From Falsiroseomonas oryzae (GTDB taxonomy: Bacteria > Pseudomonadota > Alphaproteobacteria > Acetobacterales > Acetobacteraceae), in contig NZ_JAPSMD010000001.1 in NCBI RefSeq assembly GCF_027856955.1, positions 1 through 64,000 of the forward strand: a DNA stretch of 64,000 nucleotides, given 5' to 3'. Position 1 is the stretch's first letter, and each line of letters starts with the position of its first letter. Made by a program: the position numbers and the translations under genes. Below are positions 44,905 through 52,562 of the stretch, piece after piece. The notes under the pieces are model-generated. The model saw nothing but the letters and a program-made list of their open reading frames with translations. It had not been told where the DNA came from and searched no databases.

Positions 44905-46269
44905 TCAGGCAGTCTTGATCCGGCCGGTCCCGCTGCCGGCGAGCGGCAAGGCCAGGATGGCCTCGAAGCCATCCTCCCGGCCGGTGGCGGGCGAGTGAAG
45001 GGTCAATGTGCCGCCCAGCTGCTCGGCGATTGCCTGCACGATGGAGAGGCCGAGGCCCGAGCCGCCGCCGCCATGCGAGACGAAGCGGCGGGTGAGCAGG
45101 GGCAGGCGCTCCGGCGGCAATGGCGCGCCGCCATTCACAACGCGCACGCCGCCGGACGCCAGGGCGGTCAGGTGTACCACGCCGCCGGGCGGGCCGTGGC
45201 GCAACGCATTCTCGATGAGGTTCCGGAGGGCAATGCCGAGCGCATCAAGATCCGCGTCCACCATCAATGCGGGCAGCCCGCCATCGTCGAGGCGGAGCCG
45301 CCCGGCCACGTCGGGTTGCGCCGCGAACTCCTCGACCAGAAGGTGCAGCGGAACGAGGAGATCCACTGGCGTGCGCTGGAGGCCGACGCCCGCTTCCGCC
45401 CGGGCGAGCTGCAGCAGCTTCTCCAGACGGCTGCCCAGCCGGCGCAGTCCCGCGACCATCTCCTCCGCATCGCGGCGTTCGGGGCTCTCCGCAGCAAGCC
45501 GCGCCGTCAACAGCTGCGCCTGCGCCAGAGTGGCCGCGACTGGCGTTCGCATCTCATGCGCGGCGTTCGCGCTGAAGCTGCGCTCCGCCTCCAGCGCCTG
45601 GCGCAGCCGCCGCAGCAGCAGGTTGACGTCGTCCCGCATCGCGGCGAGTTCGGCGGGCAGATCCGGCGCCTGCACCGGCGACAGGTTCGCCCCGCCGCGC
45701 TGCGCGATCTCCGCCTGCAGACGCGCCACCGGCGCGAAGCCGCGCCGCACCGCCGGGGGGATGAGCACGAGGGCAGCAACGACGAGGGCGAGCAAGGGCG
45801 TCAGCAGCCGCCAGAGCGTCGGATTGATGGTGTGCGGACGGTGTTCCGGGGGCTCCGCCACCGACAGAAGGAAGCGACCATCGGGCGCCCGCTCGGTGTA
45901 GGTGCGCGCGCGCCCGATGTCGGCGAAGCCCGGTGGCGGCATCGGCGCTTCCGACGCGCCATGCGAACGCATCACCAGCCGTCCGTCGGGCGTGAACAGG
46001 CGCCAGGTGATGTACTCGTCATGCGGGGTCGCCTGGCTCACGATGATCGCCTCCACGCCCTGATCGGCCTCGATCAGGGCCGCGTGGCGCGTGGTGATGT
46101 CGGCCAGCAGGATCTGCGCGGTTTCCTGCAGGATGCTGTCGAACACCTCGTTCAGCTCGCGCACCACGACCAGCGCCGCGGTCGCCGCGGAGAGGAGCCA
46201 GAGCACGAAGAGGCCTGCCCCAAGGGACAGCGCGAGCCGCCCGCCCATGCTGCCAGGCCACAGGCGCAT
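44905..46269 (-). CDS. Two-component sensor histidine kinase (QseC-like)
   Basis: A 454-residue inner-membrane kinase: membrane segment about residues 12-36, periplasmic sensor region about 37-152, second membrane segment about 156-176, HAMP-like linker, then the dimerisation domain with phospho-acceptor His238 (AAHEMRTPVA). The ATPase domain has the N-box NLIENALRHG and GSGLGLSIV; the G1 box reads VVNGGAPL rather than the usual DNGPGI, a small departure. The ATG overlaps the response-regulator stop by one base (TGATG). It is divergent from the giant RTX protein gene, a candidate target of this system. Confidence 0.93.
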   Translation of the reverse strand: MRLWPGSMGGRLALSLGAGLFVLWLLSAATAALVVVRELNEVFDSILQETAQILLADITTRHAALIEADQGVEAIIVSQATPHDEYITWRLFTPDGRLVMRSHGASEAPMPPPGFADIGRARTYTERAPDGRFLLSVAEPPEHRPHTINPTLWRLLTPLLALVVAALVLIPPAVRRGFAPVARLQAEIAQRGGANLSPVQAPDLPAELAAMRDDVNLLLRRLRQALEAERSFSANAAHEMRTPVAATLAQAQLLTARLAAESPERRDAEEMVAGLRRLGSRLEKLLQLARAEAGVGLQRTPVDLLVPLHLLVEEFAAQPDVAGRLRLDDGGLPALMVDADLDALGIALRNLIENALRHGPPGGVVHLTALASGGVRVVNGGAPLPPERLPLLTRRFVSHGGGGSGLGLSIVQAIAEQLGGTLTLHSPATGREDGFEAILALPLAGSGTGRIKTA

Positions 46270-46925
46270 CAGGGTCGCACCCGGTAGCCGACGCCGCGCA
46301 GCGTGTCGATCGCGTCCGAGCCAAGCTTCTTGCGGATGCGGCTGATGCACACCTCAACCGCATTGCTCTCGATCTCCGCGCCGTAGGCGTAGATCGCCTC
46401 CTCGATCTGCTCGCGGGAGACGACGGCGCCGGGCCGCTGCAGCAGCCGTTCCATGACGGCCCATTCCCGCGCGGTCAGCGTGATCTCCGCGCCCCGCAGC
46501 CTGGCGCGCCGGTCATCGAGGTTCAGCTGCGCCTCGCCGGCCCGTACCTCCCGTTCAGGCCGCGCTGCCGCACGGCGCGCCACGGCCTGCACCCGGGCCA
46601 GCAGCTCGCCGAGGTCGAAGGGCTTCACGAGGTAATCGTCCGCGCCTGCCTTCAGCCCCTCGATCCGGTCGGTGATCTGGTCGCGCGCGGTCAGCACGAT
46701 CGCGGGGCGCCAGTCGCCGCGGCTGCGCATGGCCCGCAGCACGCCGAGCCCGCTGCCGTCCGGCAGCCCGAGGTCGAGAAGCAGCAGGGCATGGTCGCCG
46801 GGACGCAGGGCGGCCTCGGCATCGGCGCAGCTTCCGACGAGGTCGACGGCGTGGCCTGCAAGCGCCAGATGCTCGCGCACCGCGCGCCCGAGCGCAGGAT
46901 CGTCCTCGACCAGCAGAATTCTCAT
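46269..46925 (-). CDS. OmpR-family response regulator
   Basis: A 218-residue regulator: receiver domain with phospho-acceptor Asp51 (LLLDLGLPDG) and the conserved Lys in VKPFD, then an OmpR/PhoB winged helix with NAVEVCISRIRKKLG and DTLRGVGYRV. It is cotranscribed with the sensor kinase. An 11-base direct repeat of the OmpR/PhoB type lies about 25 bases upstream of its start, between it and the giant gene, so autoregulation and control of the giant gene are plausible. Confidence 0.95.
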   Translation of the reverse strand: MRILLVEDDPALGRAVREHLALAGHAVDLVGSCADAEAALRPGDHALLLLDLGLPDGSGLGVLRAMRSRGDWRPAIVLTARDQITDRIEGLKAGADDYLVKPFDLGELLARVQAVARRAAARPEREVRAGEAQLNLDDRRARLRGAEITLTAREWAVMERLLQRPGAVVSREQIEEAIYAYGAEIESNAVEVCISRIRKKLGSDAIDTLRGVGYRVRP

Positions 46926-47045: not shown

Positions 47046-50000
47046 ATGCCGCTTCCCGCCACGAAGATCGTGCTGAACGCCGCCACCGTCGGCGCCGGCG
47101 GCTATGTGCTGACACCGCAGGAGCCGGGCGATTTCGACTTCAGCGTCACCGGCTACCCGACCTCGACCTGGGTCGGCGCAATCGGCGACCTCGACGGGGA
47201 CGGCGTTGCGGAGGTCGTCACGGCGGCGCCGGGCAACAGCGACCAGGAGCCGGGCGGCGGCCGCGTCTACATCACCTTCGGCAGTGCGACGGGTGCGGCC
47301 CCCACGAAGCTGGGCGATGACCTGAGCGCCTTCCGCATCGACGGCGCCGCCATCGACGACCACGCCGGCGTTGCCATCGCGGCCGTCGGTGACCAGGACG
47401 GCAACGGCCTGGCCGACCTGCTGGTTGGCGCTGCGCTGGCCGATCCGGGCGGACAGGATGCGGCAGGCACCGCCTATGTGGTGTGGTCCACCGGCGTCGC
47501 CGGCAGCGTGGACCTGCTCGATCTTGAAAGCGAGGCGTCGGGGGAAGGCTTCGCGATCTTCGGCGAGGCGGCAGGCGACCATGCCGGTCACGCGCTCGGC
47601 GCGATCGCCGATCTGAACGGCGACGGCACGGCGGAGATCCTGGTGGGCGCGCCGGGCAGCGACGCTGCGGGCATCGATGCCGGCGCGACCTATGTCGTCT
47701 GGGGGCGCGACGGGGACGACACGACCGTCGCGCTGACCGACGTGGCCGGAGGCGCCGGCGGGTTCCGCATCACCGGCGAGGCGGAGGGGGACGAGGCGGG
47801 CTCCGCCCTCGCATCGCTGGCCGACCTGAACGGCGACGGCAAGGCCGAGATCCTGGTGGGCGCACCCGGCAGCGATGCCGGTGGCGTGGATGCCGGCGCG
47901 GCGTATGTGGTGTTCGGCAAGGCCACCGGCGCGGCGGTGGATCTTGCCGCCGTGGCGGTCGGCACCGGCGGCTTCCGCATCACCGGCGCGACGCCCGGCG
48001 AGCGGGTCGGCAGCGTCCTGGCCGCGCTGGGGGACGTGAATGGCGACGGGCGCAGGGATATCCTGCTCGGCGCGGATGGGATCGCCTATGTCGTCTTCGG
48101 CAAGGCCGATAGGGCGGAGGTCGATCTTGCCGCCGTCGCGGCCGGCGCCGGGGGGTTCGCGATCCTGCCGGAAGGCGCGGGCGACCTGTCCGCCATCGCG
48201 GTGGCAGGTGGCGGCGACCTCAACCGGGACGGCGTCGCCGACATCGTCATCGGCGCGTCACACAATGACGAGGGCGGCTTCAATGCCGGCGCCGTCTATG
48301 TGGTCTGGGGCGGCGCCAAGGGGCCGGTGGACCTCTCCGCCATCGCACTCGGCGCCGGCGGCGCGAAGGTGGTCGGCGCCGCTGGCAGTTTGACCGGCAG
48401 CAGCGTCGCCGTCGCGCCCGACATGAACGGCGATGGCGCAGCCGAACTCATCATCGGCTCCCCCGGCGCGAGCGGCGAGCGCGTGAGCGTGCTCTACGCC
48501 CCCGCCGCGTGGCAACCGGACCTCAACGTCTACGGCACGAACGGCGACGATGCGCTGGGCGTCGGCGCTGGCGGGCTGCACGTGATCGGCGACGGTGCGG
48601 ACAGCATCTACGCGTTGGACGGCGCGGATTCCGTCGCCGCAGGCGGCGGCGCCGACATGCTGGACGGCGGCAGCGGCCCGGACACGCTGGCCGGCGGGAA
48701 CGGCAACGACACGTACGTGGTGGATTCGGCGGATGACGTGGTGGCCGAGGCGGGGGGCGAGGGTGCGGACACCGTTCTCGCGGCCGCCAGCTTCACACTG
48801 CCCGACGAGGTCGAGGTCCTGAAGCTGACCACGACCGGGCGCGTCGGCAGCGGGAATGCGCTCGACAACCTGTTGCTCGGCACGACCGGTGCTGACACGC
48901 TGAAGGGCGCCGCCGGGATCGACACGCTCGGCGGCGATGCCGGGAACGACTCGCTCGACGGCGGCACCGGCGCCGACAGCATGGCCGGCGGTACCGGCAG
49001 CGATGCCTATTTCGTGGACGACGCGGGCGACGCCGTCGTCGATGCAAGCGGCGTGGACACGGTAGTGGCCGGCATCGACGGCTATGTGCTGGGCGCCGAT
49101 ATCGAGGTCCTCGTTCTGGCGGGCGGCGCGCATGCCGGCAGCGGCCATGGCGGCGCCAACACGCTGGTCGGCGGCGCCGGCGCGGACAGCCTCTTCGGAC
49201 TTGGCGGCCTCGACTCCCTGGTCGGCGCGGGGGGCGACGACCGGCTGGATGGCGGGTCCGGGGCGGACAGCATGGCCGGGGGCGCCGGGAACGATCTCTA
49301 CCTCGTGGACGACATCGGCGACCGCGTCACGGAACTCGCGCTGGGCGGCCTGGACACGGTGAGCAGCGTCGTGGACCACACCCTCGCGAGCGAGGTGGAT
49401 GTCCTTGTCCTCGCCGCCGCCGGGCACCGCGGCACCGGCAACGGCGGCGCCAACCTGATGATCGGCAGCGCGGGCGCGGACACGCTGGACGGCGGCGCCG
49501 GTGCCGATACGCTGGAAGGCGGGACGGGCGACGACACCTATATCGCAGACGGCGCCGACGTGATCGTGGAGACGGCGGCAGGCGGGCACGATGTGGTGCG
49601 ATCCTCCGTCGGGCTCGCTCTCGGCGACGAGGTGGAGGATCTGGTCCTCACGGGCCTTGGGCTGGCGGGCACCGGCAATGCATCGGCCAATGCGATCCTT
49701 GGTTCGGCCGGCGCCGACACGCTGGACGGCGGCGGCGGCGCAGACACGCTGACCGGCGCTGCCGGAAACGACCTCTATCGGGTGGACGATGCCGCGGACG
49801 CCGTGACGGAAGCGCCCGGCGGTGGCATCGACAGCATCGCCGCCTCGGTCGACGCCGTCCTGCCGGCGGAGGTGGAGGCACTGCTGCTGGAAGGTGCCGC
49901 GCGCCACGGCACCGGCAACGCGCTCGACAACCTGCTGCGCGGCGGCGCGGGCAACGACCTGCTGGAAGGCGTGGACGGAGCGGACACCCTGGATGGCATG

Positions 50001-52562
50001 GCCGGCGCCGACACCATGGATGGCGGCGCCGGCAACGACACCTACCTCATCACGGATGGTGGCGACGTGGTGGTGGAACTGCCGGGCGGCGGCTTCGACA
50101 CGGTTGTCGTCTCGACGGACTGGGTGCTGGCGACGGGGATCGAGGGCGTCCAGCTCGTCGGCACCGGGCACAGCCTCACCGGGAATGCCGAAGGCAACAC
50201 GATCAGCGGCAATGCCGGCGACGACACGCTGGACGGCGCCGAGGGTGACGATGTCGAGCTCGGTGGCGATGGCGACGACCTGCTGATCTGCGACTCAGGC
50301 CGTGACACGCTGTCCGGCGGGTCTGGCGACGACCGCTTCGAGATCCGTGGCGGCAGCGCGCATGTCGAGGACTTCCTGGGCCACGACACCGTCGACGCGA
50401 GCGACGCGAGCGGCGACAGCTCGATCGACCTGTCGGGCGAGGGGCAGAGCACCGTCGGCGGGCAGATCTGCGACTTCGGCCAGGGCGGCAGCGCGGCCGG
50501 GCCGCTCGACCTGCAGTTCCTGCAGGACCTGACAGGGTCCTTCATCGACGACCTGCCGATGGTGAAGAGCCTGGTGCCGCAGATCGTCGCCGCCTTGCAG
50601 GCCGTGCAGCCGGACAGCGCTTACGGCGTCTCGTCCTTCCGGGACAAGGCCTATGGCGCATTCGGCGCGCCGGGCGACTGGGTCTACCGGCAGGAGAGCG
50701 GCCTGTCGAAGGACACCGCGAGCCTGACCGCCGCCTACACCGCCATGGTGGCGAACAACGGCGCCGATGCGCCCGAGGCGCAGATCGAGGCACTGATGCA
50801 GCTCTCGCTGCACGTCGCCGATGCCGGCTTCCGCACCAATTCGGCGCGCTTCGTGGTGCTGTTCAGCGACGCGCCGTTCCATGTGGCGGGCGACGCGCCA
50901 GCCGCCTGGGCTGACAACGACGGCGATGGCGTGATGGACGGCACGCCCCCCGGCACCGGCGAGGACTATCCGGCCATCGCCCAGGTCAAGGCGGCGCTGG
51001 AGGTGGCGAACATCATCCCGGTCTTCGCGGTGACGCTGGGCAACGAGGCTGCGTATCAGGGCCTGGTGACGCAGCTTGGTCGCGGTGCCCAGGTGACGCT
51101 GAGCGCCGACAGCTCGAACGTCGTCGCCGCCATCACCACGGGCCTCACGGCGGTGACGCGCACCAGCATCGAGGATGCCTGGGGCGGCGCCGGCAACGAC
51201 ACGCTCAAGGGCAACGCGTCCGGCAATGCGCTGGAAGGCGCGGCCGGCAACGACTTGCTTGCCGGCGGTGCAGGCAACGACTCGCTGTCCGGCGGACTCG
51301 GTCATGACCGCATGGAGGGTGGGTCCGGCGCAGACAGCATGGCCGGCGGTACGGGCCACGACACCTACGCCGTGGACGATACGGGCGACGTGGTCACCGA
51401 GTCGTCCCTCGGGGCCGGTGGGCGCGACACGGTGGAAGCCTCCTGCGACTGGGCCTTGGGAACCGGCCTCGAGGGCCTGGTCCTCAAGGGTGCCGCAGTG
51501 CACGGCGTCGGCAACCTGCTCGGCAATATCCTTGTCGCGGCCGGCGCAGCCTGGCTCGAGGGTCTCGGCGGGAATGACGCGCTGACCGGCGGCCTCGGCG
51601 CAGACACGCTCGATGGCGGCACCGGTGCCGACCGGTTGGCCGGCGCGGCGGGCAATGACCTCTACAAGGTGGATGACGCCGGCGACCTGGTGGTGGAGGC
51701 AGCGGCCCGTGCCGGCGGCCTGGACACGGTGGAGTCGTCGGTCGACTGGAGCCTCGGCACCGGGCTGGAGGCCCTGGTCCTGATGGGGCCGGCGTCGCAC
51801 GGCGTCGGCAATGCGCTGGCGAACTCGCTGGTCACGACCGGCGGGGCAGCCTCGCTGGAAGGGCGCGACGGGAACGACGTACTGGGCGGAGGTCTCGGCG
51901 CAGATACCCTCGATGGCGGCACCGGCGTGGACCGCATGGCCGGCGGCGCCGCGGACGACGTCTATCTCGTGGACGACGCGCGCGACCTGGTGCTGGAGGA
52001 TCCCGGTGCCGGTCGGGATACGGTGCTCTCGACCGTGTCCTTCACCCTGCGCACGGGGGTGGAGGTGCTGCGCCTTGGCGGAGCGGCGCTGGTCGGCACC
52101 GGCAGCATCGACGCCAACGAGATCGAGGGCAATGCGCTCGACAATCTGCTTCTGGGCGGCGTTGGCGCGGACACGCTGCTGGGTGGAGACGGCGCCGACA
52201 CGCTGGATGGCGGCAGGCAGGGCGACCTCCTGACCGGTGGGGGCGGGGCGGACACCTTCCGCTACGCTTCGCTGGCGGATCGCGCCGATGGTATCGCGGA
52301 TTTCGACCCGCTGGCCGACACGCTGCTCGTGTCCGCGGCAGGCTTCGCGGGCGGGTTGCTCCAGGGCATGGACATCACGGCGGAGAACCGCTTCGTGGTC
52401 GGCACCGCGGCGACTGGGGCGTTCGGCCAGTTCCTCTGGCACGCACCGCAGGGGCGGCTGTCCTGGGACGCGGACGGCACGGGCGCTGGCGGACCCGTGC
52501 TGCTGGCAGTCCTTTCGCCGTGGCTGGCGCTGTCCGGCGCTGACCTCGTGGTCGGCGCCTAG
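47046..52562 (+). CDS. Giant secreted-type RTX protein with integrin-alpha-like propeller and integrin-beta-like I domain
   Basis: A 1838-residue protein with no N-terminal signal peptide. Residues ~1-490 form seven FG-GAP blades, each with a calcium loop of the DxNGDGxAE kind (DLDGDGVAE near 48 to DMNGDGAAE near 459), as in integrin alpha heads. Residues ~500-1105 and ~1379-1740 are glycine/aspartate-rich RTX repeats containing nine GxDxYxVDD-type units. Between them, about 1155-1375, is a von Willebrand A/I-like domain whose metal motif DLTGSFIDDL (Asp1161) matches the integrin-beta MIDAS pattern D-L-S-x-S-x-x-D-D. The last ~100 residues resemble the C-terminal region of type I-secreted RTX proteins. 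It is expected to be exported and to fold on binding calcium; adhesion is inferred. No type I secretion genes are in the window. AGAGGGGC precedes the start. Confidence 0.9.
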   Translation: MPLPATKIVLNAATVGAGGYVLTPQEPGDFDFSVTGYPTSTWVGAIGDLDGDGVAEVVTAAPGNSDQEPGGGRVYITFGSATGAAPTKLGDDLSAFRIDGAAIDDHAGVAIAAVGDQDGNGLADLLVGAALADPGGQDAAGTAYVVWSTGVAGSVDLLDLESEASGEGFAIFGEAAGDHAGHALGAIADLNGDGTAEILVGAPGSDAAGIDAGATYVVWGRDGDDTTVALTDVAGGAGGFRITGEAEGDEAGSALASLADLNGDGKAEILVGAPGSDAGGVDAGAAYVVFGKATGAAVDLAAVAVGTGGFRITGATPGERVGSVLAALGDVNGDGRRDILLGADGIAYVVFGKADRAEVDLAAVAAGAGGFAILPEGAGDLSAIAVAGGGDLNRDGVADIVIGASHNDEGGFNAGAVYVVWGGAKGPVDLSAIALGAGGAKVVGAAGSLTGSSVAVAPDMNGDGAAELIIGSPGASGERVSVLYAPAAWQPDLNVYGTNGDDALGVGAGGLHVIGDGADSIYALDGADSVAAGGGADMLDGGSGPDTLAGGNGNDTYVVDSADDVVAEAGGEGADTVLAAASFTLPDEVEVLKLTTTGRVGSGNALDNLLLGTTGADTLKGAAGIDTLGGDAGNDSLDGGTGADSMAGGTGSDAYFVDDAGDAVVDASGVDTVVAGIDGYVLGADIEVLVLAGGAHAGSGHGGANTLVGGAGADSLFGLGGLDSLVGAGGDDRLDGGSGADSMAGGAGNDLYLVDDIGDRVTELALGGLDTVSSVVDHTLASEVDVLVLAAAGHRGTGNGGANLMIGSAGADTLDGGAGADTLEGGTGDDTYIADGADVIVETAAGGHDVVRSSVGLALGDEVEDLVLTGLGLAGTGNASANAILGSAGADTLDGGGGADTLTGAAGNDLYRVDDAADAVTEAPGGGIDSIAASVDAVLPAEVEALLLEGAARHGTGNALDNLLRGGAGNDLLEGVDGADTLDGMAGADTMDGGAGNDTYLITDGGDVVVELPGGGFDTVVVSTDWVLATGIEGVQLVGTGHSLTGNAEGNTISGNAGDDTLDGAEGDDVELGGDGDDLLICDSGRDTLSGGSGDDRFEIRGGSAHVEDFLGHDTVDASDASGDSSIDLSGEGQSTVGGQICDFGQGGSAAGPLDLQFLQDLTGSFIDDLPMVKSLVPQIVAALQAVQPDSAYGVSSFRDKAYGAFGAPGDWVYRQESGLSKDTASLTAAYTAMVANNGADAPEAQIEALMQLSLHVADAGFRTNSARFVVLFSDAPFHVAGDAPAAWADNDGDGVMDGTPPGTGEDYPAIAQVKAALEVANIIPVFAVTLGNEAAYQGLVTQLGRGAQVTLSADSSNVVAAITTGLTAVTRTSIEDAWGGAGNDTLKGNASGNALEGAAGNDLLAGGAGNDSLSGGLGHDRMEGGSGADSMAGGTGHDTYAVDDTGDVVTESSLGAGGRDTVEASCDWALGTGLEGLVLKGAAVHGVGNLLGNILVAAGAAWLEGLGGNDALTGGLGADTLDGGTGADRLAGAAGNDLYKVDDAGDLVVEAAARAGGLDTVESSVDWSLGTGLEALVLMGPASHGVGNALANSLVTTGGAASLEGRDGNDVLGGGLGADTLDGGTGVDRMAGGAADDVYLVDDARDLVLEDPGAGRDTVLSTVSFTLRTGVEVLRLGGAALVGTGSIDANEIEGNALDNLLLGGVGADTLLGGDGADTLDGGRQGDLLTGGGGADTFRYASLADRADGIADFDPLADTLLVSAAGFAGGLLQGMDITAENRFVVGTAATGAFGQFLWHAPQGRLSWDADGTGAGGPVLLAVLSPWLALSGADLVVGA
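48590..50350 (+). repeat. First RTX repeat block within giant gene (six units)
   Basis: Six units of about 78-99 residues, each with a GGxGxDxL run, a GxDxYxVDD stretch and a GTGNAxxN stretch. Unit markers begin near 48700, 48996, 49290, 49530, 49764 and 50031. Long antisense reading frames here are composition artefacts. Confidence 0.85.
50505..51175 (+). other. Integrin-beta-like I/vWA domain coding segment
   Basis: Encodes about residues 1155-1375. The metal motif is at 50526-50552, followed by MVKSL and a GVSSFRDK strand that parallel the integrin-beta order D-L-S-x-S-M-x-D-D-L, VKxL and GFGxFxxK. A VVLFSDAPFH strand follows. Confidence 0.75.
51181..52260 (+). repeat. Second RTX repeat block within giant gene (three units)
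   Basis: Three further units of about 98-101 residues, with GxDxYxVDD-type markers near 51355, 51650 and 51953, resuming after the I-like domain and leading to the C-terminal secretion-type region. Confidence 0.85.

Follow-up and report, generated by a model that had tools for sequence, protein, structure and literature searches.

Integrin-type β-propellers and βI domains are each already known in bacteria, where they are described separately in the accessible text of the relevant papers (PMC3192720, PMC2651865). The bacterial propellers have one calcium site per repeat (Chouhan et al. 2011, PMC3192720), and integrin-β-like proteins have been noted in Trichodesmium (PMC3192720) and in cyanobacteria generally (PMC2651865), to judge by the parts of these papers available. 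The accessible text of a further study counts 46 vWA proteins among the predicted RTX adhesins of type I secretion (PMC3034196). BapP of Pseudoalteromonas tunicata is described in the sections at hand as a calcium-dependent adhesin with an N-terminal propeller and a suggested type I secretion (PMC12153261). Among eukaryotes, the SibA-E proteins of Dictyostelium have an integrin-β-like vWA domain (PMC2651865, PMC9453864), together with repeats that have been likened to RTX/adhesin repeats (PMC2651865), again according to the accessible text. The available portion of a paper on fibrillar adhesins mentions neither 'integrin' nor 'FG-GAP' (PMC8286594), and the terms integrin, VWA and von Willebrand are absent from the main text of the BapP paper (PMC12153261). 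In the literature searched, partly accessible and with subscription journals mostly outside it, there is no report of both integrin modules in one bacterial protein.

Such a protein is encoded in Falsiroseomonas oryzae, in a window of 64,000 nucleotides of contig NZ_JAPSMD010000001.1, the whole stretch of DNA that was analysed. A first-pass annotation had proposed that a single RTX polypeptide with integrin-α-like and integrin-β-like modules is encoded at positions 47046-52562, and this is borne out by the open frame on the forward strand, of 1838 amino acids, and by Pfam. From its N- to its C-terminus the protein carries seven FG-GAP blades, a run of RTX repeats, an I domain of Integrin_beta type and further RTX repeats (Table 1). 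The RTX repeats (HemolysinCabind, PF00353) make up 20 stretches with an E-value of 2.3e-66. The Pfam listing extends to an E of 10, and the HMMER filters drop most matches above an E of about 0.1. The N-terminal sequence MPLPATK is common to the relatives (consensus MPIPxTK), and because of this conserved MPxPxTK start we favour the ATG at 47046 over an upstream ATG at 46791; on sequence grounds the annotated start is probably right. The GC content of the gene is 72.1%, against 71.4% for the window, so that there is no compositional sign of recent foreign DNA. A phage or viral origin is likewise rejected: there was no phage match, none of 27 pattern matches in viral contigs was confirmed, and no PHROG was found with an E-value of 0.001 or below. 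Around the gene start, repeats were looked for and proved to be short ones only.

Table 1. Features of the adhesin gene and the adjacent two-component genes, in window coordinates.
Feature	Position	Strand	Basis
Sensor histidine kinase (2CSK_N, HisKA, HATPase_c); extent of the listed ORF, start approximate	44905..46350	-	Pfam
OmpR-type response regulator (Response_reg + Trans_reg_C), divergent, 120 bp from adhesin gene start	46269..46925	-	Pfam
Whole gene: seven-bladed propeller, RTX, I domain, RTX, C-terminal tail	47046..52562	+	Open frame, Pfam, conserved N-terminus
Integrin-α-type seven-bladed FG-GAP β-propeller, residues 6-494	47061..48527	+	Pfam, blade HMM, AlphaFold2, structure match
First RTX block (residues 497-1145, limits approximate), separating the propeller from the I domain	48534..50480	+	PF00353, spacer lengths in relatives
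Integrin-β-type I domain, residues 1152-1375 as searched	50499..51170	+	PF00362, PDB matches, AlphaFold2
MIDAS/ADMIDAS segment DLTGSFIDD, residues 1161-1169	50526..50552	+	Sequence, conservation over 80 domains
Second RTX block (residues 1385-1775, limits approximate)	51198..52370	+	Pfam
C-terminal tail ending ALSGADLVVGA and stop; candidate type I secretion signal	52371..52562	+	Sequence, relatives' ends

The I domain is of the integrin-β kind. Residues 1152-1369 match Integrin_beta (PF00362) with an E-value of 2.6e-24 and 86.7 bits, well above the cut-off of 24.8, while the generic VWA model PF00092 does not appear in the Pfam listing of the protein (E up to 10, HMMER filters on); a generic VWA identity is therefore rejected. 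Among the relatives, L072 matches both models (VWA E 9.4e-6, Integrin_beta E 4.2e-35), and L031 and L037 give weak matches to VWA_4, below the cut-off of that model. Searched alone against PDB sequences, the domain finds 62 matches, the best 60 of which are all integrin β or β-like; a profile of 35 bacterial I domains finds 78, with integrin β-2 the best at E 9.1e-46, and again the best 60 are all integrin β or β-like, while those outside the best 60 (2 of 62 and 18 of 78) could be other VWA domains. The AlphaFold2 model of the domain has a pLDDT of 89.8 and a pTM of 0.89. Compared with known structures, it matches integrin β in all 50 matches listed, in both structure lists, a family missing from the matches listed not thereby being excluded; VIA-align gives Z 29.2-31.3, with 217-221 of 224 residues aligned. 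The suggestion of the first-pass annotation that the segment 1155-1375 is more than a generic VWA domain is thus upheld by sequence, PDB and fold matches alike.

The metal-ligand residues can be followed through 80 bacterial I domains, comprising that of the window and those of 79 loci, with L083 omitted as partial; residue numbers follow integrin β-3. D119, S or T at 121, S123, D127, D158, D217, E220 and D251 are each found in 80 out of 80. Position 121 is S in 46 and T in 34 domains, position 126 has D in 76 and N in the other 4, and P219 is P in 67. The two search patterns by which the loci were found contain D119, 121, S123, D126 and D251, so that the counts at these positions are partly built in; D127, D158, D217 and E220 are in neither pattern. 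The loci counted are also those closest in likeness to the window. The MIDAS (DxSxS, E220, D251) is present in all 80, as D, T, S, E and D in the window protein. The motifs DLTGSFIDDL, VKSL and GVSSFRDK that had been read as integrin-β-like all occur in the window protein, and the adjacent DD that had been likened to the ADMIDAS holds up as the pair D126 D127. At the SyMBS, D158, D217 and E220 are kept throughout, and N215 is Gly in 79 domains and Glu in one. The alignment thus points to conservation of the MIDAS, the ADMIDAS and most of the SyMBS ligands across the 80 domains.

The propeller is equally well defined. Pfam finds seven FG-GAP stretches (E 2.9e-36), and our own blade HMM also finds seven blades, the first starting at residue 26, after the conserved Met region; as this HMM was built from blades of the same family's proteins, Pfam is the independent check. 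All 52 matches of the propeller to PDB sequences are integrin α (best E 1.8e-6). Its AlphaFold2 model, which like that of the I domain was made as a single module, has a pLDDT of 90.0 and a pTM of 0.91, and integrin α is found in all 50 structure matches listed, in both structure lists. VIA-align gives Z 32.7-34.4 and rmsd 2.6-3.4 with 371-398 of 508 residues aligned, and the Foldseek TM-scores by query are moderate, at 0.54-0.58. The earlier reading of a seven-bladed propeller of integrin-α type is confirmed by the stretch count, the model and the structural alignment. A calcium loop is present in 27 to 35 of 35 propellers, depending on the blade.

Do the two modules act as an integrin head, as the first-pass annotation had raised? 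The contact between α and β in integrins is marked by the R/K261 finger, the specificity-determining loop and an aromatic cage. At the finger position R is found in 1 of the 80 I domains, with no K among the residues listed, and the window protein has P. Both Cys columns of the specificity-determining loop are gaps in 80 of 80, so that the loop and its disulfide are absent. On the propeller side, aromatic residues account for 3 of the 175 FG positions counted (five blades in 35 propellers, blades 1 and 6 being uncounted), small residues taking their place in the bacterial propeller. The distance from the last blade to the I domain varies from 466 to 746 residues in 38 relatives, and is 633-661 in 28 of them. 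With finger, loop and aromatic cage missing, and the spacer both long and variable, an integrin-like head is unlikely, and the idea that the modules act as one is not supported. The protein thus differs from its animal counterparts on both sides. It resembles integrin β in the sequence and predicted fold of its I domain, in MIDAS, ADMIDAS and most SyMBS ligands, and departs from it in lacking the loop and the finger and in the Gly at position 215. Its I domain is flanked by RTX repeats, and no hybrid, PSI, EGF or tail domain, membrane anchor or any other integrin β domain occurs in the Pfam listing (E up to 10). It resembles integrin α in its seven FG-GAP blades and their predicted fold, and there is no Pfam match in the window protein to the thigh, calf or transmembrane parts of that subunit. 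On these sequence features it is probably a sticky surface protein of a different kind, and not an integrin head.

The comparison with the bacterial and Dictyostelium systems can be drawn on the same basis. The propellers of PMC3192720 share the single calcium loop per blade, and the fusion to RTX repeats and an I domain found here is not described in the accessible text of that paper. The cyanobacterial proteins, as far as the available descriptions go, share an I domain of integrin-β type in a bacterium. Ten cyanobacterial relatives were found in our own search (L071, L072, L073, L077, L078, L083, L085, L088, L092 and L096), and unlike the window protein they have no propeller in their ORFs. 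The vWA-containing RTX adhesins of LapA type are alike, to the extent that their description is accessible, in combining RTX repeats with a MIDAS domain. The window protein differs from them in having an integrin-β type of domain in place of a generic VWA, in its N-terminal propeller, and in a genome without LapG. BapP likewise has its propeller at the N-terminus of a calcium-dependent adhesin, one for which type I secretion has been suggested, and differs in having five blades, a Sec signal peptide and Ig-like repeats, according to the available sections (PMC12153261). The SibA-E proteins are eukaryotic membrane receptors for which the accessible text describes no propeller.

How general is this architecture? 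A genome scan with I-domain patterns confirmed 120 relatives, of which the best 80 were kept; because these were ranked by likeness to the window, the share of loci with a propeller is inflated. Propeller and I domain lie in the same ORF in 42 of these 80 loci, 38 of which have exactly seven blades above 20 bits, the other four being cut at the 5′ end. Pfam applied to L032, L037, L036 and L031 gives FG-GAP, RTX and Integrin_beta in each of the four, with 6, 7, 4 and 6 FG-GAP stretches, respectively, passing individually; L036 also matches Peptidase_M10_C, the serralysin C-terminal domain. The arrangement of propeller, RTX and I domain is thus a conserved family and not a one-off, and homologues with the same domain order do exist. 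The combination had been said to look unusual, a description to be tempered, since at least 42 further loci have the two modules within a single ORF. The hosts include Acetobacteraceae, Caulobacteraceae, Rhodobacter relatives, sphingomonads, Ideonella, a Nitrosovibrio bin and Methylococcaceae; several are metagenome bins, the names of which may be wrong. PF00362 is patchy in its distribution, occurring in 3 of 15 genomes of the genus, 4 of 59 relatives and 4 of 385 genomes of the class, counting each time the genome of F. oryzae itself, which has one such gene.

Some loci depart from this pattern. L028 and L054 have five blades and one blade, respectively, encoded by an ORF of their own upstream of the one with the I domain, so that these copies look broken or misassembled. 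L055 and L065 have two I domains per ORF and no propeller. On a plasmid of Rhodobacteraceae bacterium M382 an I domain is contained in a metallopeptidase-like RTX protein (L014:6492-10481), for which the record annotates an M10 C-terminal domain and a zinc motif can be read by eye in the N-terminal part. Another is found on a plasmid of Vibrio gigantis, in an unannotated ORF with a subtilase-like part, also read by eye (L015:2-2026). In some relatives lacking the propeller (L072:8383-9570 and L095:6838-9294) the strands flanking the I domain look like those of the integrin hybrid domain. In L072, residues 333-361 of this segment align with β-7 335-364, sharing LRALGF, at a non-significant -4.1 bits. 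The same L095 protein matches the vWA_SIBA-E model with an E-value of 7.8e-8, and the window protein does not.

In a tree of the I domains, 45 propeller rows (the window, the 42 in-frame loci, L028 and L054) fall into one branch of 49 rows with support of 100/98, which also holds L030, L043, L055 and L068. Two integrin rows lie outside it on a long branch, beside a cyanobacterial row (85/77). Constraining the 49 rows together with the integrins is not rejected, with p-AU of 0.307. L083 was left out of the trees as partial, and the second tree, used for the AU test, dropped P0002, P0003, P0010, L096 and L088. The tree suggests that the fusion arose within Pseudomonadota, a joint clade with integrins not being rejected by the test. 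An ancestral fused integrin was considered and set aside, since the integrin rows are placed outside the propeller branch, yet the same test allows a joint clade.

The two-component genes beside the adhesin gene recur in the family. Of 36 propeller loci, 16 have a similar OmpR-type response regulator close upstream; of 33 other loci, none has. The 33 include L028, L054, L055 and L068 of the propeller branch, and 11 loci were excluded from the count as having little upstream DNA. Twelve of the 16 regulators are divergent within 312 bp, and four are co-directional at 1.4-1.5 kb; a kinase like that of the window accompanies the regulator in 12 of the 16 loci. The 16 loci are L021, L022, L031, L032, L033, L035, L042, L046, L050, L053, L057, L076, L023-L025 and L061. 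The remaining 20 of the 36 have no regulator nearby by scripted count. L020, which falls outside the 16 because its start was wrongly placed in the scripted count, also has a regulator-kinase pair. The link to the regulator is not exclusive to propeller loci, as L073, which has no propeller and stands outside the count, has a regulator directly downstream.

How might the protein leave the cell? No Sec signal is seen by eye at its N-terminus, and this together with the RTX repeats argues for type I secretion. C-terminal ends of this kind in RTX proteins are type I secretion signals. The genome of F. oryzae contains a gene for a PrtD-family exporter (670.8 bits against a cut-off of 510.15), a candidate exporter for the window protein. 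The ten ORFs tested around the gene in the window include no exporter. With one PrtD-like fragment as query, matches were found in 3 of 81 sequences (the window and 80 loci, with flanks up to 10 kb), and at none of the propeller loci. LapA-type proteins carry an N-terminal retention module. No retention module was found by Pfam in the window protein, and LapG (PF06035) is absent from its genome (0/1), Caulobacter vibrioides being positive as a control. With no LapG, and with the propeller beginning at residue 6, retention of the LapA type is rejected, and the protein may be released from the cell rather than retained.

The mechanism that we infer from the computed domains, predicted folds, metal-ligand residues, family conservation, neighbourhood and exporter gene would run as follows. 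The large RTX protein would leave the cell by a type I secretion system, whereupon extracellular calcium would fold its RTX β-rolls, seven-bladed propeller and I domain. The I domain would use its MIDAS metal to bind an acidic group of a partner molecule, as in integrins, with the propeller as a second, separate binding or scaffold module and the RTX block as a calcium-stiffened spacer. The targets would probably be surfaces, biofilm matrix or other cells, and the divergent OmpR-type two-component pair probably controls expression. On balance we consider it fairly likely that this is what the protein is: an adhesin exported by type I secretion and folded by calcium, with its ligand site at the MIDAS, and unlike an integrin head. 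The calcium-dependent adhesin suggested by the first-pass annotation is accordingly plausible.

Other readings have been weighed against this one. The protein might instead be a released component of a matrix or scaffold, in which the I domain of one molecule would bind the propeller of another, or the modules would attach to polysaccharide, building up biofilm matrix instead of holding on to a receptor. No membrane anchor or retention module was found, the same type of I domain occurs elsewhere with unrelated modules (metallopeptidase-like and subtilase-like), and the wider propeller supercluster includes the fungal PVL lectins in the accessible text of PMC8023676, all of which would fit. Yet the integrin MIDAS pattern is so tightly kept that a specific acidic ligand seems likely, and we judge a matrix role unlikely. 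It is a doubtful proposition that the protein is a one-chain counterpart of the integrin head, in which the modules dock by a contact not of the animal kind and the I domain changes shape on binding ligand, whether drawn from a bacterial stock of integrin modules or reinvented independently. Very unlikely is a protein for sensing or storing calcium or other divalent metals, with an I domain of structural role only. Its very many predicted calcium sites, in seven blades and 20 RTX stretches, and the adjoining two-component pair are consistent with this, but ordinary RTX proteins hold calcium without any I domain, and the MIDAS is the ligand-binding site in those characterised I domains that keep it. 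The least likely is a single-chain head in which propeller and I domain dock within one chain with ligand at the joint, as in αV-β3, for although both modules are of integrin type in their sequence and in their predicted fold, are joined in one ORF in the 42 loci, and could share a branch with integrin β under the AU test, the finger, loop and aromatic residues of that joint are almost wholly missing and the spacer is long and varies between relatives.

The favoured reading is thus of an RTX surface protein built from two integrin-type modules, the pairing of which in one bacterial protein appears, in the literature covered, to be new. It bears on the origin of integrins in that both types of module share one conserved bacterial protein. 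This calcium-dependent bacterial system lends itself to asking what an integrin-β MIDAS domain binds without an α subunit, whether propeller and I domain can touch, and how type I secretion delivers a protein of this kind. The known repertoire of RTX surface proteins is also widened.
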